From Prolixibacteraceae bacterium (GTDB lineage: Bacteria > Bacteroidota > Bacteroidia > Bacteroidales > Prolixibacteraceae), in assembly GCA_019856515.1 (NCBI GenBank), contig CP082230.1, positions 3,844,001 to 3,908,000 of the forward strand: a stretch of 64,000 bases of DNA. The letters run 5' to 3'. The position numbers and the translations under genes were made by a program. Below are positions 8,080 through 43,379 of the stretch, one piece after another. Under the pieces are notes generated by a model. That model saw nothing but the letters and a program-made list of their open reading frames with translations, was not told the DNA's origin and did no database searches. Position 1 is the stretch's first letter. The number at the start of each line of letters is the position of its first letter.

Positions 8080-8237
8080 CTCACAGCCTATTGAAATACA
8101 GTTTACTTACCCTTAAGTTACCTTTCCCTTACCTCAAAAGGCTATTTTGGTAAGGGAAGGGTAACTTAAGGGTAAGTTTAGGGTAACTTTGGTGGCTGTG
8201 AGGTCCCTTTTAAACCCCTTTTAAATTACTCTTAAAT
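8080..8237. repeat. 11-bp-phased inverted repeat (palindrome centred near 8141)
   Basis: Arms 8105-8133 and 8149-8177 are complementary over 29 bp with one G-U-type mismatch around a 15-nt loop. A second concentric pair, CTCACAGCC at 8080-8088 and GGCTGTGAG at 8194-8202, has the same centre. The whole stretch can be cut into 11-base words without slippage, for example AAGGGTAACTT at 8157, AAGGGTAAGTT at 8168 and TAGGGTAACTT at 8179, then AAACCCCTTTT at 8212 and AAATTACTCTT at 8223. It is not a coding repeat and not a simple terminator, since no T-run follows. Confidence 0.85.
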
Positions 8238-8611: not shown

Positions 8612-8756
8612 TACCTCATACACACATAAATAAGAGTGTTTCCTTGTTGCTTACAAATTGAAAGTGATAAGTGTGATACTTTTAGATATAGTTTAAGTTT
8701 ATGAACATGCAGTATTTTGTGTGTAGTAGATTATGAAATTATAACTGTTGAGGCAA

Positions 8757-10070
8757 ATGAAAGTATTAAAATTTGGAGGAACTTCTGTTGGATCAGTAGA
8801 AAACATGAAGACGGTAATGGATATTGTTACCGATGGAGAGAAAAAGTTGGTTGTTCTTTCTGCGATGTCTGGAACCACTAATACTTTGGTGGAGATTGCA
8901 GATTATCTTGCCAAGAAGAACAAGGATTCTGCACGCTTTGTCATCAGCAAGTTAGAGAAACAGTACTACCAAACCATTCGTGAGATGTATCATTCGGAAG
9001 AGATCATTGAGCGAGCTTTCATGATTGTTGAAGATTGTTTCGATACGATCAAGTCGTTCACTTCTGGTGAGTTCACCGAGAATGGAGAAAAAAATATATT
9101 AGCCCAAGGAGAGATTATCTCTTCTAATCTTTTCAACTTATTGTTGATTCAAGAAGGGTATAAGTCTACACTACTTTCGGCACTAGATTTCATGAAGATT
9201 GATAGTGATAAGTCAGCGGATCAATTTTATATTGAGAAGAATGTATGTAAATTATTAGAGGAGAATCCAAGTGCTGATTATTATATCACACAGGGGTTTA
9301 TCTGTCTGAATAGTGATGATGAGATTGATAATTTACAGCGTGGTGGTTCCGACTATACAGCATCGTTGATTGGAGCTGCGATTAAGGCAGAAGAGGTTCA
9401 GATATGGACTGATATTGACGGATTTCACAATAATGATCCACGTGAGGTAGAGAATACGAAGAAAGTGGATTCACTATCTTTTGATGAAGCAGCAGAGCTT
9501 GCATATTTTGGTGCTAAGATTCTTCATCCTCAAACAGTATTGCCTGCAAAATTGGCTAATATCCCTGTACGTCTTAAGAATACGATGAACCGTAATGATG
9601 AAGGAACAATTATCCGAAGTCAGACGGGTTCACAAGGTCTAAAAGCAGTTGCTGCAAAAGATGGAATTACTGCGGTTAAGATTCGTTCAGGACGAATGTT
9701 AAATGCCTATGGTTTCTTGAAAAACATCTTTGAGATCTTTGAGTTCTTTAAGACACCTATTGATATGATTACGACCTCTGAGGTTGCTGTCTCTGTTACT
9801 ATTGATGATCCTAAGAATCTAGATGCGATTGTAATGGAGCTCAAGGAGTATGGAGATGTTGAGCTTGATGTAGATCAAACGATTATATGTATTGTTGGAA
9901 ATATGATCTCTACATCTGAAGGTTTAGCCATGAAGGTTTTTGATGCATTGGGTGATATTCCTGTACGAATGATATCGTATGGTGGTAGTGACCACAATAT
10001 TTCAGTATTGGTTTCAACAGAGGATAAGAAAAGAACGTTACAAGCGATTTCTAATCACCTGTTAGATTAA
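8757..10070 (+). CDS. lysC: Aspartate kinase, lysine-pathway type
   Basis: A 437-residue aspartokinase that phosphorylates L-aspartate, the first step to lysine/diaminopimelate, threonine and methionine. The kinase domain begins with KFGGTSVG (residues 5-12); a central RGGSDYTASLIGAA nucleotide-binding segment and two C-terminal ACT regions follow (from about residue 300). ATG at 8757 is chosen because it gives the canonical MKVLKFGGTSVG start; an upstream in-frame TTG at 8748 adds only three residues. There is no fused homoserine dehydrogenase. lysA follows 14 bases later, so the pair probably forms a lysine/DAP operon, and feedback control by lysine through the ACT domains is expected from the family. 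Confidence 0.94.
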   Translation: MKVLKFGGTSVGSVENMKTVMDIVTDGEKKLVVLSAMSGTTNTLVEIADYLAKKNKDSARFVISKLEKQYYQTIREMYHSEEIIERAFMIVEDCFDTIKSFTSGEFTENGEKNILAQGEIISSNLFNLLLIQEGYKSTLLSALDFMKIDSDKSADQFYIEKNVCKLLEENPSADYYITQGFICLNSDDEIDNLQRGGSDYTASLIGAAIKAEEVQIWTDIDGFHNNDPREVENTKKVDSLSFDEAAELAYFGAKILHPQTVLPAKLANIPVRLKNTMNRNDEGTIIRSQTGSQGLKAVAAKDGITAVKIRSGRMLNAYGFLKNIFEIFEFFKTPIDMITTSEVAVSVTIDDPKNLDAIVMELKEYGDVELDVDQTIICIVGNMISTSEGLAMKVFDALGDIPVRMISYGGSDHNISVLVSTEDKKRTLQAISNHLLD

Positions 10071-32216: not shown

Positions 32217-32759
32217 CTATTTAATCAACTTAGAGATCGCTTTAAAAGCAGGTGCTTTTGCCGATCCTGCCAATTCAAATAGGATTGATTCATAAGTTGT
32301 CAATGTAATTCCTTCTGATTCGAAACGACGTAAAGCCACCTTCTTATCCGACTTCTTACGTGAGTCTACTGCATCCACCACCACAATCGGATTGTATCCA
32401 GCATCTTTCAAATCAAGTGCCGTCTGTAATACACAAATATGTGATTCAATACCTGTGATAATCACATTCTTCGCTTCGTTGGCATGCAAGAAACTTTTAC
32501 ACATCTCGTGACCATAACAACTAAAGTCAGCCTTGTCAAATGAGATGAAATCTTCCACCAACGACTTAATTTCTTCTATGGTCTCTCCCAATCCCTTCGG
32601 ATACTGCTGTGAAAAGATCGTAGGCACTCCAAGCTCCTTCAACCCAGAGATAACAATCTGATTATTCTTAATGACCTCCTTCTTGTTACGCATTACAGGA
32701 ACCAATTTCTCCTGTAGATCGATGATCAACGCAACGCTGTTTTCTCTTGTGATTCTCAT
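32217..32759 (-). CDS. Isochorismatase-family cysteine hydrolase
   Basis: A 180-residue cysteine hydrolase. The expected catalytic triad is visible as Asp14 (LIIDLQEKL), Lys76 (FDKADFS) and Cys109 (IESHICVLQTAL). The family includes nicotinamidases and isochorismatases; this short form lacks the metal-site signature of nicotinamidases that I would expect, so the substrate is unassigned. It lies 26 bases behind the SIS-domain gene, in the same direction, suggesting an operon. Confidence 0.88.
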   Translation of the reverse strand: MRITRENSVALIIDLQEKLVPVMRNKKEVIKNNQIVISGLKELGVPTIFSQQYPKGLGETIEEIKSLVEDFISFDKADFSCYGHEMCKSFLHANEAKNVIITGIESHICVLQTALDLKDAGYNPIVVVDAVDSRKKSDKKVALRRFESEGITLTTYESILFELAGSAKAPAFKAISKLIK

Positions 32760-35665: not shown

Positions 35666-36118
35666 ATGATGAATGCTTTTTTACGCTTTAACCTTATTTT
35701 GTTCATGATTATCTCTTTCAGTAAGTCAACACTTGCAGAAGAAATCGAACATAAATCCCACTCTAGCCTCTGGAGCTCAGTGTGGGATGAAAAGATCAAT
35801 GATGTAGCATTTAAAAAAGTTGGAGCTTCGGTGAAGACCCCCTATACCATTCAGGAGTTGGTGGACATCCTTAATACAACCCTATTCTTAGGTATAGAGG
35901 TCGTAGGACAAAAAGCTGAAACGTTAATGATTAAGATTAACCAAGCTGAAGATTTAACCCAGCATATGGGGTCTAGTGGAGCGCGTACCTGTCTTGGAAT
36001 TATCACCTTTACTTTAACCGAAAACAGCCGTGTCAAAAAAGTAGAGATGGATTTCGAATTTGGATCTCATGCCTCTCCTGGAACCTACTCTAGAGCCGAT
36101 TTCATCCAAGCTTTCTAA
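35666..36118 (+). CDS. Small exported protein of unknown function
   Basis: A 150-residue protein with a clear signal peptide (hydrophobic 7-20, likely cut after TLA). The mature region of about 125 residues has a helical ELVDILNTTLFLG segment and a beta-rich end (GIITFTLTENSRVKKVEMDFEFGS). I do not recognise the family. Two ATGs in tandem (35666, 35669) make the start uncertain by one residue. It lies 25 bases after the UbiD-family gene and is probably cotranscribed, although no functional link is evident. Confidence 0.75.
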   Translation: MMNAFLRFNLILFMIISFSKSTLAEEIEHKSHSSLWSSVWDEKINDVAFKKVGASVKTPYTIQELVDILNTTLFLGIEVVGQKAETLMIKINQAEDLTQHMGSSGARTCLGIITFTLTENSRVKKVEMDFEFGSHASPGTYSRADFIQAF

Positions 36119-36209: not shown

Positions 36210-37138
36210 GTTTAATCAAGCTACAAAAATGAAACAGTAGCCTTTCTCAATAGAAATACCCTTTAATGCCCTACAAACAAAATATCCTTGAAAGATACCC
36301 CTCATTTTACCTCCATAGAATTCTGAAGTGAACTATCGAAACTTACGAATATATCCTGTTCCGAAAGGTCACAAAAATACCATCATAATCACTCTACAAA
36401 AATCTAACCATAGTCTAACAGTATCCTAACGATAGTATCACAATATCTCCACCGAGTTTTCTTCATGCCATATCAATATTCTTTCAGAGGTCAAACAGTG
36501 GGTTGATAGTAGATTAAACCCTACTTTCCCCTGACTTAATCCGCCTTTAATACATCCCTAATCCGTCCTTAATCCGTCCTTAATCCGTCCTTTGTCCATG
36601 GTTTAGCCATGCTTCCTCCATGGTTTGTCCATCGATTTCGGGGTTTTTGATGGCTGAACCATGGATCAATGATGGACGAACTATGGACAAAGGACGGATT
36701 AAGATTAGATTAACGACGGATTGTGGACGGATTAAGTTGGGAGAAGGTATAGGGTATTCCCCTGTTTGGCTAGGTTGAATATCTAATTCGAGAGGGAGGT
36801 GGTGGTAGTGTAAATTACACTCTGTCTGGGGTATTGGGTGTTTTGATTTGGGGTGACTTAAGAGGTGTGGTTTGAAGAGGTTCTGGAAAATAGTTTGGTG
36901 GACCTATTTGTCTATTGGTTAGTAACGGGTGTTGATTGTTTGATTAGGGAAAAATGCCGATCATTTTTTATGACTAGAATTGGTGTTGTAGAGATGAAAA
37001 ATGCTTACCTCACTATGTCGTGAGATAAGCATCTTCATGTTGTTTCTGCATTGAATACAGCTCTGTTATAGCAATAGCAAGCCATTAAAACACAAGATGG
37101 AGTCGTGATTTAATGTATGTTTCATTGTCTCCATGGGA
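36210..37138. other. Gene-free stretch carrying the phased repeat array
   Basis: About 930 bases with no supportable gene on either strand. The first 150 bases are unremarkable. 36359-36766 is the 11-bp-phased array listed separately. The last 370 bases hold G-rich then AT-rich unique sequence with no clear motif. Confidence 0.6.
36359..36766. repeat. Long 11-bp-phased array forming an imperfect palindrome
   Basis: From 36503 to 36755 the sequence divides without slippage into 23 consecutive 11-base words. On the left they start with TT and resemble TTAATCCGTCC (exact at 36569 and 36580; variants at 36514, 36536, 36547 and 36558), then TTTGTCCATGG-type words (36591-36634). After the central word ATTTCGGGGTT (36635) the words are their reverse complements, for example AACTATGGACA (36679), AAGGACGGATT (36690) and AACGACGGATT (36712). 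Left arm 36534-36633 and right arm 36649-36737 therefore pair imperfectly. A further degenerate run (CTAAC-type words at 36403, 36414 and 36425) precedes it, one base out of phase. Confidence 0.88.
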
Positions 37139-38506
37139 TTAAAAGACATCGAGCTGAAGACGTTTTTCTCGCTTCAATGTTTTGATGTATTTGTCCGCCT
37201 CTTCTGTGGTTAGGTTTCCATGTTTTCTCACAATCTCTTTAAGGCTCTCTTGGACCTCTTTGGCCATATGATTTTTATCGCCACAAATATATAGATGAGC
37301 GTTTTTGTGCTCTATCCACTCCCATAATAGACTTTGTTGTTCTGTGATACGATGTTGTACGTATACCTTTTGCTCCTTATCACGACTGAAAGCGGTGTCT
37401 ATTCGACCCAGTGTTTTTTTGTTTTGGAATGCTTTCCACTCCGATTGATATAGGTAGTCGGATTCCCTCTTCTGTTCGCCGAAGAAGAGCCAGCTTTCGG
37501 GTTTTTTGCTTGATTCTAGTTGATCTATCTCTTGGAGAAAAGAGCGGAATGGAGCTACTCCTACACCTGCACCTATCATCACAATAGGGTGTTGAGGTTG
37601 GTTGGGCAGTTTGAATCCTTTGTTCGACTCAATAAAGATAGGCAGTAGCTGTCGCTCTTTGATTCTATCAGCAATAAATGTAGAGCAAGCCCCTTCTCTC
37701 TCTCTATTTTTTATCTCGTAACGAACGGTACGAATAGTAATATGTACCTGTTGGTCGACCTTCTTCATACTCGATGCAATGGAGTAGAGACGAGGATAGC
37801 GAGGAGTAAGAATCGTAATGAATTGATCAAATGTGATATCCGAAGGGAAATCATGCAGTAGATCAAGAATATCATGTCCGTGGAGGTACGCCAATTTTTC
37901 GTCTTTGTTTTGTAATAGCTTTTGCAATCCTTCGTGGTCTGTCAGCTTTTGGTATTTCTTTAGTAACATCGCATTGATCGAAGTGATCTCTACTAAGTGA
38001 TGAAGAATGGACTCCGCAATTCTTAGGTGATCACGATAGAAGAATGGTGCATCTGCGTCTATTTTAAAGTGGGTGAGGATCGCTTGAACGAGTCGTGGTG
38101 GATTGTCATGGTGGATACCAAGAATATCACCTGGCTGGTAGGTCAAGCCTGATCCTTGTAGTGATAACTCTAGGTGGTATACCTCTTTGTTCGATGCATC
38201 TCCTGTGATGCGCTCCTTCTTGAGGACCCTAGCAGAGAATGGGTTCTTTCTGTCATAAACGGGGAATGTCTCGATCGATTCGGACAACTCTTGTTCGGAT
38301 CTCTTTTGAGTTATTATTGATTCACTGTCCTCTCTGTTGTTATTGGATTGGGATATATGTTTTATGTCGTGATGGTGGTCTAAGGTTAACTCATCACTAT
38401 TTTTCATGTTTTGTTGAAATTGTATGAGGTACTTAAGTGCCCACTCTTTTTCGTGTGTAGCCCATTGGTCAATGGTGCTTTGAATACTATCTATATTTGA
38501 TGACAT
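37139..38506 (-). CDS. CysJ-like FAD/NADPH reductase lacking the FMN domain
   Basis: A 455-residue flavoprotein related to the reductase half of sulfite reductase alpha subunit and cytochrome P450 reductase. Residues 1-75 are a polar helical region, not a flavodoxin. From about 78 the FAD-binding FR-type domain begins (NPFSARVLKKERITG), with the helical connecting domain, PRLYSIASS for FAD, GAGVGVAPFRSFLQE and LYICGDKNHMAKEVQ for NADPH. The C-terminus ends in the aromatic residue of LDVF, placed like the FAD-stacking residue of the family. The electron acceptor is unknown: no FMN domain or sulfite reductase hemoprotein gene is nearby. It is a single gene. Confidence 0.87.
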   Translation of the reverse strand: MSSNIDSIQSTIDQWATHEKEWALKYLIQFQQNMKNSDELTLDHHHDIKHISQSNNNREDSESIITQKRSEQELSESIETFPVYDRKNPFSARVLKKERITGDASNKEVYHLELSLQGSGLTYQPGDILGIHHDNPPRLVQAILTHFKIDADAPFFYRDHLRIAESILHHLVEITSINAMLLKKYQKLTDHEGLQKLLQNKDEKLAYLHGHDILDLLHDFPSDITFDQFITILTPRYPRLYSIASSMKKVDQQVHITIRTVRYEIKNREREGACSTFIADRIKERQLLPIFIESNKGFKLPNQPQHPIVMIGAGVGVAPFRSFLQEIDQLESSKKPESWLFFGEQKRESDYLYQSEWKAFQNKKTLGRIDTAFSRDKEQKVYVQHRITEQQSLLWEWIEHKNAHLYICGDKNHMAKEVQESLKEIVRKHGNLTTEEADKYIKTLKREKRLQLDVF

Positions 38507-38841: not shown

Positions 38842-39180
38842 ATGAGAAAAATTACTTTTCTATTTATTGTTGTTCTTTCAATAGTGTCTTGTTCTGAGGA
38901 GAACAAACAGAGTAATATTGAAGCCCATGCGATGGAGCGACAGATTTTAGAAATTATTAGAGAGCATCATGTGAAAGAGGTCTATGTTCGAGATCGGGTG
39001 CCGATATTAAATCCTTACAACTCTTTTACAGATGATTTTGAAGTGGGAGGAGGTATGATTCGAGTAGATTTAAAATGGTACTATTTGAAGAGGGTTGAGA
39101 GGATGTATTTAGCTCCTGGAAATAGATACCAAGGGCTCGTGATCGATTTAAAGGAGGGTGAAGTAATAATGAGGATTTGA
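38842..39180 (+). CDS. Small lipoprotein, paralogue 1 of 3
   Basis: A 112-residue lipoprotein with a short leader and lipobox IVSC at Cys17. The mature part has a helix (MERQILEIIREHHVKEVYV), then a beta-rich end containing HDFEV-like DDFEVGGGMIRVDLKWYYL. Two further genes downstream encode the same architecture and similar motifs, so this is a tandem family. Function is unknown; attachment to the inner leaflet of the outer membrane or to the cell surface is expected from the lipobox. Confidence 0.8.
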   Translation: MRKITFLFIVVLSIVSCSEENKQSNIEAHAMERQILEIIREHHVKEVYVRDRVPILNPYNSFTDDFEVGGGMIRVDLKWYYLKRVERMYLAPGNRYQGLVIDLKEGEVIMRI

Positions 39181-39394
39181 TTTCGCCGTCTTGGAATCAC
39201 TATTGTGTCGTTCTCGATTATTAGGAGAATGGTGTGTGCGTTTCGTTCGTGCCTTTTCAAATGGTTGCAAAGGAAGTTTACAATTATTTATCACGAAGGC
39301 CAAACATCGATAGTTGGAGTGAGAGATACGACTTACTAGTTTGAAGTGTATCTGTGGGATGGTTTGTTGTATGATACTCAAAAGAATAATAAAT

Positions 39395-39724
39395 ATGAGA
39401 AAAGTTATTTTCATTTTAATGATATTCCTCTCTTGCGCATGTAGTAAGACGCATTATATGACGGAAGAGGAGGCAATGGAAGCGAAGGTTTTAGAGGTGA
39501 TTCGATCCAATAACGTGACAGGAGTCGTTATTGTAGAAGTAGATCAGTTATCTTGGGATCGTCCAGAGTTTATTGATTTTCAATTTCCCTCTTCTGGAAC
39601 TATTGAAATATCCAACTGTAAAATCAAGGTAGAGGGGAAATGGTATAATTTACTGGATATATCAAGAATGGAGGTTCAAGATTTACAAAATATCCGTACG
39701 ATATTACTGTACTACTCTAATTAA
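39395..39724 (+). CDS. Small lipoprotein, paralogue 2 of 3
   Basis: A 109-residue lipoprotein beginning MRKVIFILMIFLSCACSK, lipobox cysteine at residue 17. ATG at 39395 is chosen over an upstream in-frame ATG because it matches the leaders of its two neighbours. The helix EAMEAKVLEVIRSNNVTGV and the C-terminal KVEGKWYNL motif align with paralogues 1 and 3. It is the most divergent copy: the DFEV segment is replaced by GTIEISNCKIK. It lies about 215 bases after paralogue 1, a gap with no recognisable gene. Confidence 0.78.
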   Translation: MRKVIFILMIFLSCACSKTHYMTEEEAMEAKVLEVIRSNNVTGVVIVEVDQLSWDRPEFIDFQFPSSGTIEISNCKIKVEGKWYNLLDISRMEVQDLQNIRTILLYYSN

Positions 39725-39812
39725 TTAATTAATATAACACTTAGCAGCAACAAGGTGATGGACTTACTGATTGTTTTATCGGTTGTTATGGGAAGGGTTA
39801 AATCAATATACA

Positions 39813-40139
39813 ATGAAAAAAGTTATTTTATTTTTTATGATCTTTCTTTCGTTTGCTTGTAGCAAAGAGGAGCTTCCGGTAGAAACGCAAACGGATCTAT
39901 TGGAACATAGGCTGAAAAAGATGATTCATGATAATCATGTAAAAGAGATCACGGTATTAGATCATTTCGTTGTTGATTATTTTAATTTGTATTATACGCA
40001 TGATTTTGAGGTGAAATCTGGAATGTTGAGAGTCGGAAGAATATGGTATAATTTATCGATTATTAAAGAAACTGAGTTGATCCCTAACGATCCTTTTCCT
40101 CGTCTTAAGATTAGGCTTAATCTTAATCATCGTTATTAA
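39813..40139 (+). CDS. Small lipoprotein, paralogue 3 of 3
   Basis: A 108-residue lipoprotein with leader MKKVILFFMIFLSFACSK and lipobox Cys17. The start at 39813 is chosen by comparison with paralogue 2, whose upstream and leader DNA is also similar. The mature part has HRLKKMIHDNHVKEITVLD and HDFEVKSGMLRVGRIWYNL, closest to paralogue 1. Function is unknown. A complex dyad lies just past the stop, before a convergent gene. Confidence 0.8.
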   Translation: MKKVILFFMIFLSFACSKEELPVETQTDLLEHRLKKMIHDNHVKEITVLDHFVVDYFNLYYTHDFEVKSGMLRVGRIWYNLSIIKETELIPNDPFPRLKIRLNLNHRY

Positions 40140-40188
40140 AGTCGGATTTAGAGTGGCTAGGTTTTATACTCCAATGTTTGGAAGGAGC

Positions 40189-40237
40189 CTTCTACATTGT
40201 ATCATGATATAATGTAGAAGATATCATGATACAATGT
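40189..40237. repeat. Two overlapping, mutually exclusive hairpins between convergent genes
   Basis: Perfect 10-bp arms at 40189-40198 / 40211-40220 (CTTCTACATT and its complement) overlap perfect 16-bp arms at 40194-40209 / 40222-40237, so only one can form at a time. There is no T-run, so a simple terminator is doubtful; a terminator with alternative folding, or a protein-binding site built on TATCATGATA, is possible. Confidence 0.75.
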
Positions 40238-40246
40238 CAAGTCTGT

Positions 40247-40780
40247 TTAAAGAAGAAATCCAATAATGATATCTCCTCTCCAGTCGATAGCTTTTGTTCC
40301 TGCATGTTCATATTGTTTGTCATGCCACCAGGTTTTACCAACTCCGATTTGTCCTTCCAGGTAGAACCAGTTAAATGTTCTACGTATTCCCCACATTATA
40401 TTACAATCTATCCCATAAGGATTAATATCATTCCAGTATTTATTGCTGGTAATGTTTTTATGAATATATCCTATTTCAGCAGTTACAAAACTTGCGCTAT
40501 TACCTTTTGTGTCTTTCCCTTTACTTTCTCTCATCAGAATATTGTAGTAATAGCGATACCCCAGATAGATAGATGGTCTAATATATGCTTCGGTATCTTC
40601 TATTGACCAGTAGGTTTTGAGTGACAGATCCATTGTGCTTTTGTCCCCGATCTTCTTCTCTACACCAAAACCTGGTTTTAATGTCAGGTTAATTTTGAAA
40701 AGGTCTTCCGTTCCTGTTCCTTGTGCTTTTGTGTTTAGACTAGCCATCGTAATTGCTAGTAGTAGAATGATTTTTTTCAT
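40247..40780 (-). CDS. Small outer-membrane beta-barrel-like protein
   Basis: A 177-residue exported protein with a signal peptide cut near NTKAQ. The mature part consists of alternating hydrophobic/polar strands with many aromatics (YIRPSIYLGYRYYYNIL, FNWFYLEGQIGVGKTWW) and ends with a final strand IIIGFLL. This pattern suggests an 8-stranded outer-membrane barrel, similar in size to porin-like or DUF3575-type proteins. The exact family was not recognised. It converges on the lipoprotein cluster and is divergent from the GLPGLI operon. Confidence 0.75.
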   Translation of the reverse strand: MKKIILLLAITMASLNTKAQGTGTEDLFKINLTLKPGFGVEKKIGDKSTMDLSLKTYWSIEDTEAYIRPSIYLGYRYYYNILMRESKGKDTKGNSASFVTAEIGYIHKNITSNKYWNDINPYGIDCNIMWGIRRTFNWFYLEGQIGVGKTWWHDKQYEHAGTKAIDWRGDIIIGFLL

Positions 40781-41180
40781 TTAGGTTGTGTTTATATGAT
40801 TTACTCCCCCCATATTGGTCATTGTTGTGGGTATAAAAGTAACATAATATCACATCTGAATGATAAATAATGTTGATTTATCTGTTTGTGGGTTGAATAA
40901 ATGTTAATATAACAGTATTCTTGACTTGAATATGTAATATAACGATCACATTGTTCCTCTCTCTTTAGATATTGATTATTAGCTTCTAGCCCTTACTTCG
41001 CCCTTATTATGCTACTTTATGATTTTGTGATAATATGGTACTATTTTAATAAACCAACTGTATTAAATTAATGTTAATATATGTATTTACATGTTTATGT
41101 TTGTATCTTTGAGAGTGGGTGGTCAAATTACCTTTGAGATGTTATTTAAGTTATAACCTAAATCCGATAATTTAATTTTT
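40781..41180. other. Divergent intergenic region upstream of GLPGLI-1
   Basis: A 400-base AT-rich region. It contains a -7 box at 41104-41111 and a weak 11-base periodicity at 40990-41022 (CCCTTACTTCG then CCCTTATTATG). I looked for a second small peptide gene here and found none. Confidence 0.5.
41104..41111 (+). promoter_or_regulatory. GLPGLI-1 promoter -7 box
   Basis: TATCTTTG matches TAnnTTTG, 69 bases before the start codon. No good -33 partner is seen. Confidence 0.45.
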
Positions 41181-42041
41181 ATGAAAGAACTCCTATTTTT
41201 CCTTATTCTCCTTTTTGTTGGTAATGTTTATTCCCAGACTGTTGAAGGGGGGGATTTGAATGAACTTGGTTTTGACGTGATCGAGAAAGAGATCATTGAT
41301 ACGGCAAAGGTTGATATCTTCTATACGTTAGATTTTCGTTTAGATCCTAAGAAACCAGAGAAAATGAAACATGCGCAGACTTTCTTGCAGATAGGTAAAC
41401 ACTCGCGATGTTTTAAAGATTACAATGAATTCCTTTCTGATTCGGTGAATGATGATTGTGCTAAAAAATCACTTAGTGCGATGGAGGGGATGATGAAATT
41501 GATGTCTGTGATGAAAAGACGCAAGTATCAAAAGACTATTTTGTTTGGTGTTGAAGAAGGGCAGTTGGTGAAGCGTCATGATATATATCCTTCCATCTAT
41601 GAATATCGGGATAGTATTCCTTTGTTTGATTGGATTATCACCGAAAGAGATAGTACGATTCTGAATTACAAATGTAAGATGGCAACGTGTCATTATCGTG
41701 GACGCGACTATGAGGCATGGTTTGCTGAGGGTATCTCTATGCCCTATGGTCCAGATGTTTTTGGAGGATTACCAGGTTTAATAATGGATGTTCATGACAC
41801 CCAATATCATTATCACTTCCAATTGAATGGATTATATCCTGTGGACCATCTTCAATTAATTTATGCAACGAATGATGAGAAAGTGATTGCCTCTACAAGA
41901 TCGCGAACAAGAAAGATATATGAGCATACAAGAAAGTTTCCAGCAGAAGCAATGAAGCAAGCTTTCCCTGATGATGAATTGACAGCTGATGATATTGCTA
42001 ATATTAAGCCGAAGCCTTACAATCCAATGGAATTAGAGTAG
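41181..42041 (+). CDS. GLPGLI family protein 1
   Basis: A 286-residue exported protein with a signal peptide (residues 1-18, VYSQ). It carries the family signature: NYKCKMATCHYRGRDYEAWF followed by PYGPDVFGGLPGLIMD. GLPGLI proteins are restricted to Bacteroidota, often sit beside TonB-receptor-like barrels and have no established function. Conserved cysteines (RCF, DDC, KCKMATC) suggest disulfides in the periplasm. It is a paralogue of the gene at 42513, with blocks of near-identical DNA flanking a diverged centre. It appears monocistronic, as a promoter follows before the peptide gene. Confidence 0.9.
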   Translation: MKELLFFLILLFVGNVYSQTVEGGDLNELGFDVIEKEIIDTAKVDIFYTLDFRLDPKKPEKMKHAQTFLQIGKHSRCFKDYNEFLSDSVNDDCAKKSLSAMEGMMKLMSVMKRRKYQKTILFGVEEGQLVKRHDIYPSIYEYRDSIPLFDWIITERDSTILNYKCKMATCHYRGRDYEAWFAEGISMPYGPDVFGGLPGLIMDVHDTQYHYHFQLNGLYPVDHLQLIYATNDEKVIASTRSRTRKIYEHTRKFPAEAMKQAFPDDELTADDIANIKPKPYNPMELE

Positions 42042-42096
42042 AGGTGAATTAGCATCAACTGTTTGTCATTTCTTCCATTGTATCGTACTCTTATTT

Positions 42097-42128
42097 TTGA
42101 TATAAATGTATAAAATGGAATATATTTG
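42097..42128 (+). promoter_or_regulatory. Promoter of the small peptide gene
   Basis: TTG at 42097-42099 and TATATTTG at 42121-42128 are 21 bases apart, a good match to the Bacteroidota consensus. It implies a leader of about 145 bases before the peptide gene. Confidence 0.6.
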
Positions 42129-42279
42129 TTAAATTAATGTTAGATGTACACAAAATGACACCATAATACTTAATAAATGTTTATAATAGTTATTATATTG
42201 TAACTGAAAGGAGATTGCTGAAAAGCCTTTAATAAATATATAAAGTGAGTAGGCATTAATAAACTAATTTAAATTTTTT

Positions 42280-42453
42280 ATGAAAAAGATTATTTTATGC
42301 GCGGCCTTTATTTTAAGTGTGGCTGGAATTGCCAATGCTGTAACAATTACGACTTCTTGTGGACATACTGAAAATGTACCAAATTCCAATTTTAAATCAA
42401 CGGGAGAGATGGTGCAATATGCATTAGCTTTAGAAGCTGAATATTGTGATTAA
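42280..42453 (+). CDS. Small secreted two-cysteine peptide
   Basis: A 57-residue ORF. Residues 1-20 form a signal peptide (KK, hydrophobic core, AxA-type end GIANA). The mature 37-residue acidic peptide has exactly two cysteines, Cys27 and Cys56, and a predicted amphipathic helix (TGEMVQYALALEAEYC) at the end. It has its own promoter and a strong terminator immediately after it, and is followed by a GLPGLI protein and a TonB-receptor-like barrel. I do not recognise the family. A secreted substrate, signal or bacteriocin-like peptide handled by the downstream envelope proteins is an inference from context. Confidence 0.72.
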   Translation: MKKIILCAAFILSVAGIANAVTITTSCGHTENVPNSNFKSTGEMVQYALALEAEYCD

Positions 42454-42469
42454 TAAAGTATTATTAGGT

Positions 42470-42505
42470 AAGAGCTATAGTATTGATGCTATAGCTCTTT
42501 TTTTA
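42470..42505 (+). terminator. Internal terminator between the peptide gene and GLPGLI-2
   Basis: A perfect 11-bp stem (AAGAGCTATAG at 42470-42480 with 42489-42499) with an 8-nt loop is followed by seven T. It lies 16 bases after the peptide stop and 8 bases before the GLPGLI-2 start, so downstream genes depend on read-through unless they have another promoter; none was seen. Confidence 0.88.
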
Positions 42506-42512
42506 TAAAGAT

Positions 42513-43379
42513 ATGAAACTATTCATTTTATTTTACTTGTTGATCTTTGTTACATTTGGTGGTTACAGCCAAAGTATTAAAGGACGTGATTTCGGTAATC
42601 TGACTTTTAAAATAGTCGAGAAACATATAGTTGATACAGCTAAAGTTAATATATTTTACACGTTAGATTTTCGTTTAGATCCTAAGAAACCAGAGAAAAT
42701 GAAACATGCGCAGACTTTCTTGCAGATAGGTAAACACTCGCGATGTTTTAAAGATTACAATGATTTTTTATCAGATTCCATTAACGATGATTGTGCTACG
42801 AATTCAATTAATTCGTCAAGTGGAATAATTCAACTTATGAATGTTGGGCGGAAAATCAAGTATTACGAGATGGTTATGCATGGCTATTTAGATGGTAAAT
42901 TACTAAGACGCCAAAAGGGGGTTCTTGTACAGAGATATGAATTTGAGGATAGTATTCCTTTGTTTGATTGGATTATAACCGAAAGAGATAGTACGATTCT
43001 GAATTACAAATGTAAGATGGCAACGTGTCATTATCGGGGACGCGACTATGAGGCATGGTTTGCAGAGGGTATCTCTATGCCTTATGGTCCAGATGTTTTT
43101 GGTGGATTGCCAGGTTTAATCATGGATATTCATGATACTCAGGATCATTATCATTTCAAATTAAATGGGCTTTATACACTGAATCATACCCAATTGATAT
43201 ATAAAAAGATAAGTAATAAAGTCATTCCATCTTCGAGAAAGAAGGCACGAAAGGTGTATAAGTATAGCCGGGAGTTTCCTGCACAAGCGATTGAACATGC
43301 TTTTCCAAACCCGAATAGATCTTTAGAAGCAATGGCTAAATTAAAACCCAAGCCCTATAATCCAATGGAATTAGAATAA
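42513..43379 (+). CDS. GLPGLI family protein 2
   Basis: A 288-residue exported protein with a signal peptide (cut near GGYSQ) and the same signature as its paralogue (KCKMATCHYRGRDYEAWF, FGGLPGLIMD). Both end in KPYNPMELE. The DNA at 42660-42763 is identical to 41325-41428, while the middle region (about residues 88-140) is strongly diverged. It starts directly after the peptide terminator and ends 3 bases before the TonB-receptor-like gene, so GLPGLI-2 and the barrel protein are one unit. Periplasmic or outer-membrane-associated location is expected; function is unknown. Confidence 0.9.
   Translation: MKLFILFYLLIFVTFGGYSQSIKGRDFGNLTFKIVEKHIVDTAKVNIFYTLDFRLDPKKPEKMKHAQTFLQIGKHSRCFKDYNDFLSDSINDDCATNSINSSSGIIQLMNVGRKIKYYEMVMHGYLDGKLLRRQKGVLVQRYEFEDSIPLFDWIITERDSTILNYKCKMATCHYRGRDYEAWFAEGISMPYGPDVFGGLPGLIMDIHDTQDHYHFKLNGLYTLNHTQLIYKKISNKVIPSSRKKARKVYKYSREFPAQAIEHAFPNPNRSLEAMAKLKPKPYNPMELE

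Follow-up and report, generated by a model that had tools for sequence, protein, structure and literature searches.

What is the run of short repeated words that fills 36503–36755 of the window (the whole 64-kb stretch of DNA analysed, positions 3,844,001–3,908,000 of the single 5,187,288-bp contig of genome G000), and what would such a structure do for a chromosome? A first-pass annotation had described 23 unbroken 11-base words that flip strand at their centre, and had listed an array for a cooperative DNA-binding protein among the possible meanings.

Anatomy and word code of the window array

The segment divides into 23 consecutive in-phase 11-bp words, direct in the left arm and inverted in the right, as found by word reading and family search; it belongs to the long type of a family that we call A. 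The annotated word count and strand flip were both borne out: each arm keeps one phase, and the inverted arms (36547–36633 and 36649–36735) are 77% complementary. What had been taken for a single 11-base central unit near 36640 is instead a conserved loop of GATTTCGGGGTTTTTGA type at about 36634–36650, and the CGATTTCGGGG centre is present in 37 of the 38 family-A copies of G000. The loop lies in a 105-bp core common to family-A copies (36589–36693; defined by positions 210–314 of the query in the genome DNA search), which consists of four words, the centre and four inverted words. The left core words (36591–36634, plus strand) are TTTGTCCATGG, TTTAGCCATGC, TTCCTCCATGG and TTTGTCCATCG, and the right core words (36650–36693, minus strand) are reverse complements of TTnnnCCAT words. 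Outside the core come, on the left, TTTCCCCTGAC and then words of TTAATCCGTCC type (36525–36590, plus strand) and, on the right, words of GGACGGATTAA type (36690–36742, minus strand). A weaker left extension with 11-bp periodicity (36359–36502) contains a 22-bp repeat at 36404–36447. In the left arm the string CC(A/G)T starts seven times between 36563 and 36629, always in the same phase, and in the right arm A(T/C)GG ends seven times between 36653 and 36730, in a second constant phase. By these markers neither arm is broken in phase, and the three additional matches to the marker strings (36659, 36601 and 36623) fall within words of the opposite orientation.

Identity at lag 11 across 36503–36755 was 0.583, compared with 0.252 ± 0.028 in 2000 dinucleotide shuffles (z = 11.7); 300 shuffles of the array reached at most 0.379 at any lag from 5 to 40. 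Harmonics were present at lags 22, 33, 44 and 55. The wider span 36359–36766 gave 0.534 (z = 12.5) and the left extension by itself 0.474 (z = 5.0). No other place in the window has a lag-11 signal as strong; the runner-up, at 8080–8229, is a different array, of TTACCCTTAAG-type words (family C, 8102–8235, inverted centre near 8140). The excess over shuffled sequence on which the first-pass annotation had staked its case was found in the array and also elsewhere in the genome. Across 864 kb (the 64-kb window and 40 stretches of 20 kb placed evenly), a lag-11 identity of at least 0.5 was reached at 21 places. No place reached this value at lags 5, 7, 8, 10 or 13, and lags that are multiples of 3 gave a few (for example 5 at lag 12 and 8 at lag 30), a pattern typical of coding DNA.

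The genes flanking the array are convergent. On the left, 35666–36118 (plus strand) encodes a 150-aa protein with no Pfam match, and its orthologue in genome G001 likewise has an array downstream; on the right, 37139–38506 (minus strand) encodes a flavoprotein reductase (FAD_binding_1, NAD_binding_1). Further along, at 38842–43379, short putative lipoprotein paralogues stand in a row (38842, 39341, 39771), and the same segment holds two similar genes at 41181 (Porph_ging match) and 42513.

Among 296 core words from 37 family-A copies (an array at 3,548 kb with a variant centre was excluded from arm and word counts), conservation was 0.99 for T1, 0.97 for T2, 0.98 for C6, 1.00 for C7, 0.98 for A8 and 0.93 for T9, a word of TTYRKCCATSR type. 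Positions 3, 4, 5, 10 and 11 are variable, and each array place has its own favoured variant. Information is 15–22 bits in the four core words per side and drops to about 9–14 bits in the outer words. The word pattern gave 120 and 119 matches per strand, compared with 3 and 5 for the reversed pattern, which confirms the family. The annotated view that the period and not the sequence is conserved stands between families, which have nothing but the period in common, but fails inside family A, where the TT...CCAT words are strongly conserved.

When subtypes were pooled, a copy's own arms were more complementary than swapped arms, as expected because the long and short types of family A differ. 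Within subtypes no excess was detected (A-long P = 0.11–0.23, A-short P = 0.16–0.87; 50–120 nt). Pairing is therefore not kept copy by copy, and the palindrome reflects how the words are laid out rather than stems that co-vary; hairpin-mediated inversion, which had also been suggested, is left without support. The conservation of TT...CCAT, combined with arms that do not co-vary within subtypes, favours recognition of the DNA by a protein, and the suggested cooperative DNA-binding protein would, as far as sequence can show, best fit the word statistics.

Transcription of the array into a long structured RNA, a bidirectional terminator or a processing site was weighed against this. The window array folds strongly (−132.1 kcal/mol on the plus strand, z = −13.0; −121 on the minus strand, z = −11.2), and its convergent neighbours agree with such a role. 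However, arms without co-variation in subtypes argue against it, as does the gene context of 52 sites (17 divergent, 13 convergent, 14 −− and 8 ++), and a terminator would need none of the even spacing described below; a structured RNA family was rejected with no Rfam match in the window at the gathering threshold. We consider this reading very improbable. The annotated statement that the array is not a CRISPR, a coding repeat or a simple terminator holds: it is non-coding, its words are contiguous with no unique spacers between repeats, and sites between divergent genes are as frequent as others, unlike terminators at gene 3′ ends. A phage or plasmid origin was rejected, with no match among 50,697 phage and 72,556 plasmid records, and the single pattern match in a viral contig (L231) lay inside a phage reading frame without a lag-11 peak.

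Array families, even spacing and chromosomal context

A DNA search with the window array found family A at 38 places in G000 (best 40 of 54 first-look candidates scored), and a second family-A query gave the same 38 (best 40 of 44 scored). The core is present in all of them; 18 are A-long, with TTAATCCGTCC-type outer words, and 20 are A-short, with TACCTTCTCC-type outer words (19 used in the similarity–distance test below plus the 3,548-kb copy). Family B, with words CCTTCGACTCT/TTGGTCACATA, was kept at 17 places (best 40 of 54 candidates scored), family C at 17 (28 of 28 scored) and family H, of TTCGATAATTG type, at 7; D and F are single examples each, and E has repeated units chiefly on one side. 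The 11-bp period and an inverted centre are common to families A, B, C, D, F and H, and the annotated period is thus real and the same in arrays of different words. Family-E words are TTGATACTTCA or AATGAACTTCG, often as two different blocks ~0.5–0.6 kb apart within one intergenic region (L051:15072 and 15604, L041:7471 and 8055, L042:19448, L032:3399, L061:4724, L031:6220). Long inverted repeats of CCGCTGGGAACG...GGCATCG type, another repeat family with no 11-bp period, were seen at L040:1059, L047:620 and L067:14057.

The arrays are evenly spaced, which is the more surprising part of the observation and is invisible from the window alone. The 38 family-A places of G000 have a mean gap of 136 kb and a minimum of 27.6 kb (P = 5e-5 for the minimum and 1e-4 for the neighbour-gap ratio, compared with uniform placement). 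For A and B together (n = 55) the minimum is still 27.6 kb, and none of 20000 simulations was as extreme. In G002, a genome of the same genus (one contig, 4,465,088 bp), family A has at least 29 places (gap-ratio P = 2.5e-4), and family C, listed completely as zero-mismatch matches, has 43 with a minimum gap of 27.3 kb (2.4 on average in simulations). The two combined (n = 72, with A at least 29) have a minimum gap of 21.1 kb against a simulated mean of 0.86, with 0 of 20000 simulations as extreme. When one family was rotated against the other by circular shifts, which preserve the spacing of each, A and C in G002 formed no pairs closer than 15 kb, compared with 8.4 expected (P = 0.00125 for the minimum). 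Likewise, A avoided B (P = 0.0006) and C (P = 0.00115) in G000. Since these families have little sequence in common, their avoidance is not explained by recombination between like copies. Even spacing together with avoidance between unlike families suggests that what the arrays do depends on how far apart they lie on the chromosome, the simplest such role being chromosome organisation.

The rule has exceptions. B–C pairs lie 0.3–3 kb apart three times, C–H pairs lie 2 and 11 kb apart, and an F-type array, assigned by eye, lies about 0.4 kb from an A array at 5.066 Mb. In the union that includes H (79 sites) the minimum gap is 0.3 kb (P = 0.66), with the gap ratio still at P < 5e-5. Two partial B matches were dropped (42 bp at 1,024,978 and 47 bp at 3,191,740); the second lies inside A-array outer words and, if counted, breaks the A–B avoidance. 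These neighbours limit the spacing rule to arrays within families and to A relative to B or C, not to all arrays. Among open-licence PMC papers we found no description of such spacing.

Some families are regional in G000. Eleven of the 17 B sites fall in 1.88–2.60 Mb (P = 2e-4) and 14 of the 17 C sites in 3.75–4.58 Mb (0 of 5000 simulations), both sub-ranges (within 900 kb) having been picked after inspection of the data; six of the seven H sites fall in 4.53–5.00 Mb. Family A lies all around the chromosome, A-long mainly at 2.65–4.84 Mb and A-short everywhere. In G002, family C is found all around the chromosome, the densest 900 kb holding 14 of its 43 sites (P = 0.65), and regional confinement is therefore not a fixed property of a family. 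From rRNA polarity, the G000 origin lies between 2.974 and 3.339 Mb, which places B and C on opposite arms at similar distances. Local spread was rejected as the source of regional families, similarity and distance being weakly or not correlated: A-short gave r = −0.01 (P = 0.40) and A-long r = −0.19 (P = 0.03), or r = −0.13 (P = 0.11) without three rRNA-linked duplicates. An A orientation that tracks replication direction was also rejected (P = 0.33).

Family A is linked to tandem rRNA clusters. In G000 an A array lies 0.6–0.9 kb upstream of the first 16S gene at 5 of 5 tandem clusters and at 0 of 2 single operons, and in G002 upstream of 3 of 4 tandem pairs and 0 of 4 single operons (best 22 of 48 and 22 of 33 rRNA search candidates scored, respectively; loci without an array were read up to 2.5 kb upstream). 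Over both genomes, 8 of 9 tandem clusters but 0 of 6 single operons have the array (Fisher P = 0.0014), a count in which four near-identical G000 copies at 3.34–4.06 Mb are not independent.

The rRNA linkage is compatible with a supply of supercoiling, and the arrays could be gyrase stations at which phased arms, on either side of a central cleavage site, wrap around two GyrA C-terminal domains, so that every domain of tens of kilobases stays supplied. The E. coli gyrase motif, as described in PMC6379681, spans 130 bp, its 36-bp centre being flanked by two 47-bp arms whose GC content is helically phased; gyrase binding is enriched in BIME-2. Its symmetry, with two helically phased arms around a centre, resembles that of the arrays, and the 105-bp family-A core, its centre flanked on either side by four words (44 bp), is of comparable build. 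By the same account, however, the E. coli motif is a degenerate GC content phased at about 10 bp, in contrast to fixed words at 11 bp that keep base identity and not merely GC class, and E. coli sites are enriched downstream of rRNA operons, in contrast to arrays upstream. Strong gyrase sites have GC phasing of ~10 bp in a common phase; in the arrays the families differ in their GC phase relative to the axis, and wrapping with a common GC phase was rejected for this reason. Gyrase stations are thus an improbable explanation.

Even more improbable is neutral tandem-repeat DNA, that is, an old 11-mer expanded by slippage and scattered by chance. Recent whole-unit expansion is visible in some copies (for example at 1,654 and 3,548 kb), and exactly 11 is the commonest length of gaps between family-A copies (153 of 340 in left arms, 68 of 223 in right arms), though lengths such as 4 and 7 are also found. 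Against it stand the even spacing, the avoidance between families, the conservation of words at fixed places and the association with rRNA; given the spacing statistics it is already disfavoured. With the transcribed hairpin, it is the least likely of the readings considered.

Turnover between species and insertion sequences

A-type arrays were found in all four genomes of the genus searched and in none of 37 other genomes. Of 25 array places at which synteny was judged, 10 are common between species, three of them with different words. Relative to G000, the place is common in 7 of the 12 judged of 15 G001 places, including that of the window's own array (L220), and one common place has an A array in G001 and a B array in G000. 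For G002 and G003 it is common in 3 of 13 (judged where an orthologous neighbour lies within 800 bp; the remaining places of the 31 G002 and 9 G003 stretches have no usable neighbour), and two of these carry A in the relative and C in G000. One of these two is the C array at 8.1 kb of the window, which has the same gene neighbour as a family-A array in G003 (L214). At L197, L210 and L215 both flanks are syntenic yet G000 has no array. Two places were dropped, L196 for a paralogous match and L213 for lying at the edge of a stretch. Variant words and centres are particular to each species. Arrays are thus gained and lost, and their words exchanged, with the spacing maintained.

Two further observations were made in these alignments. 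In G003 (L214), window genes 8748–10070 and 32217–32759 are joined at its array, and the 36.1–46.1 kb window segment, which starts with the window array, is absent. Between L216 (G001) and L069 (G000) the array region is ~98.9% identical, compared with ~73–86% in other gene regions and 96% in one stretch, suggesting a recent exchange.

Insertion sequences (IS) adjoin many arrays. The motif GTGTAAATTAAACTCTGT, the end of an IS256/Mutator-type IS (PF00872, 403 aa), occurs 29 times in the stretches examined against a mean of 3.75 for shuffled motifs, and 23 of the 29 lie within 1 kb of an array, where only 7.1% of examined bases lie; one copy adjoins the window array (36804–36831, plus strand). 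An intact 1.44-kb IS copy with an 8-bp target duplication sits inside outer array words at 4.37 Mb (L163:8554–9996). An IS256-type MITE would carry the IS terminal repeats at both ends and a target duplication; the ends found here are mostly single and on one side, and a B array at 2,425 kb with end motifs on both sides shows no target duplication by eye.

These data bear on the strongest rival to a binding array, a mobile miniature element copied in trans (IS256-type, REPIN-like or other), in which a bound array would repress insertion within about 20 kb and the spacing would be a by-product. Target immunity of this general kind is known for Tn7 and Mu. The 15 of 25 mapped places not common between species, including the syntenic flanks without a G000 array, the species-specific words and centres, the clustering of IS ends and the IS within outer words all speak for a spreading element with such an interference rule. 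On the other hand, the borders of the arrays themselves showed neither sharp element ends nor target duplications, the words fading outward; the avoidance crosses families with different words; B and C are limited to regions in G000; and the array-to-rRNA arrangement is kept in two species despite different words. Copying by RAYT in the manner of REPINs was judged improbable: two RAYT (Y1_Tnp) genes were found, about 10 kb apart (L232, L233), both immediately surrounded by many palindromes of another kind (CCCTGAAAGGG... type), with an H-family array about 1.3 kb from one of them and no A array there. On balance we regard the mobile element as unlikely, though clearly more probable than gyrase stations.

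Known site systems and a proposed platform for chromosome marking

As a kind, the arrays can be grouped with site sets dispersed over chromosomes and with extragenic palindromic repeats. As described in PMC3116907, E. coli matS is a single 13-bp site bound by MatP, with 23 copies confined to Ter, and the SlmA site a 12-bp palindrome with about 50 copies. On that description the arrays resemble both in being dispersed chromosomal sites tens of kilobases apart, and the confinement of some G000 families to one region resembles that of matS in Ter. Unlike either, the arrays are 100–250 bp of contiguous 11-bp words, in several coexisting families whose positions turn over. Nor are they matS: the TTYRKCCATSR-type word differs from the 13-bp site and A arrays are not confined as in Ter. 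Contiguous repeats are found in parC of plasmid R1, which has ten 11-bp repeats, of which ParR needs at least two (PMC9426499); parC, however, is one site per plasmid beside parMR, in contrast to dozens of inverted arrays on a chromosome. BIME/REP elements and REPINs, the latter near RAYT genes, are extragenic, inverted, multicopy, hairpin-forming and species-specific according to PMC3116915, as the arrays are, but they are not made of 11-bp words; in place of 20–40-bp REP units in inverted pairs, we found an 11-bp unit with eight core words and more outside. Non-autonomous IS and MITEs also have copies throughout intergenic DNA, and IS256-type ends adjoin the arrays, but the sharp terminal repeats and target duplications of such elements were not found around them. 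In anatomy, spacing and exchangeability of words, the arrays match none of the systems compared.

We tentatively favour, at somewhat less than an even chance, the reading that the arrays are cooperative protein-binding platforms that mark the chromosome at intervals. Each array would be a platform of double-stranded DNA, each 11-bp word of it taking up one monomer of a sequence-specific protein; because the word is nearly one helical turn, monomers would be aligned on one face, and two runs of protein, reading TTnnnCCAT-like words cooperatively, would meet head-on at the conserved centre. Platforms tens of kilobases apart might then mark or shape the chromosome, as loop anchors, stations for nucleoid proteins or condensin, or segregation marks, and the different word families might be recognised by a set of related proteins or else by a single protein of relaxed specificity. 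We infer the bound protein, its cooperative one-face binding and the role in chromosome organisation from the patterns described above. The exceptions to the spacing, the 15 of 25 positions not kept, the GC phase that differs by family, the regional confinement of C in G000 only and an A orientation that does not follow replication count against the platform reading. The interpretation given in the first-pass annotation is in sum partly supported. A more specific proposal, that the genus marks its chromosome with evenly spaced platforms of 11-bp words, the interval and the 11-bp architecture being selected, the words exchangeable between families and species, and some G000 families regional and label-like, is possible but held with less confidence than the general one.

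It was from sequence that matS and similar site sets were first recognised, and to our knowledge little is known of how chromosomes are divided into domains in bacteria outside the well-studied groups. The spacing of the arrays may point to a means of marking or organising bacterial chromosomes that has yet to be described. If they are what they look like, the Bacteroidota would gain a large site set whose spacing can be read directly; if they are spreading elements, they would offer a natural case of whole-chromosome spacing by interference, unlike families included. Under either reading, the even spacing calls for an explanation.
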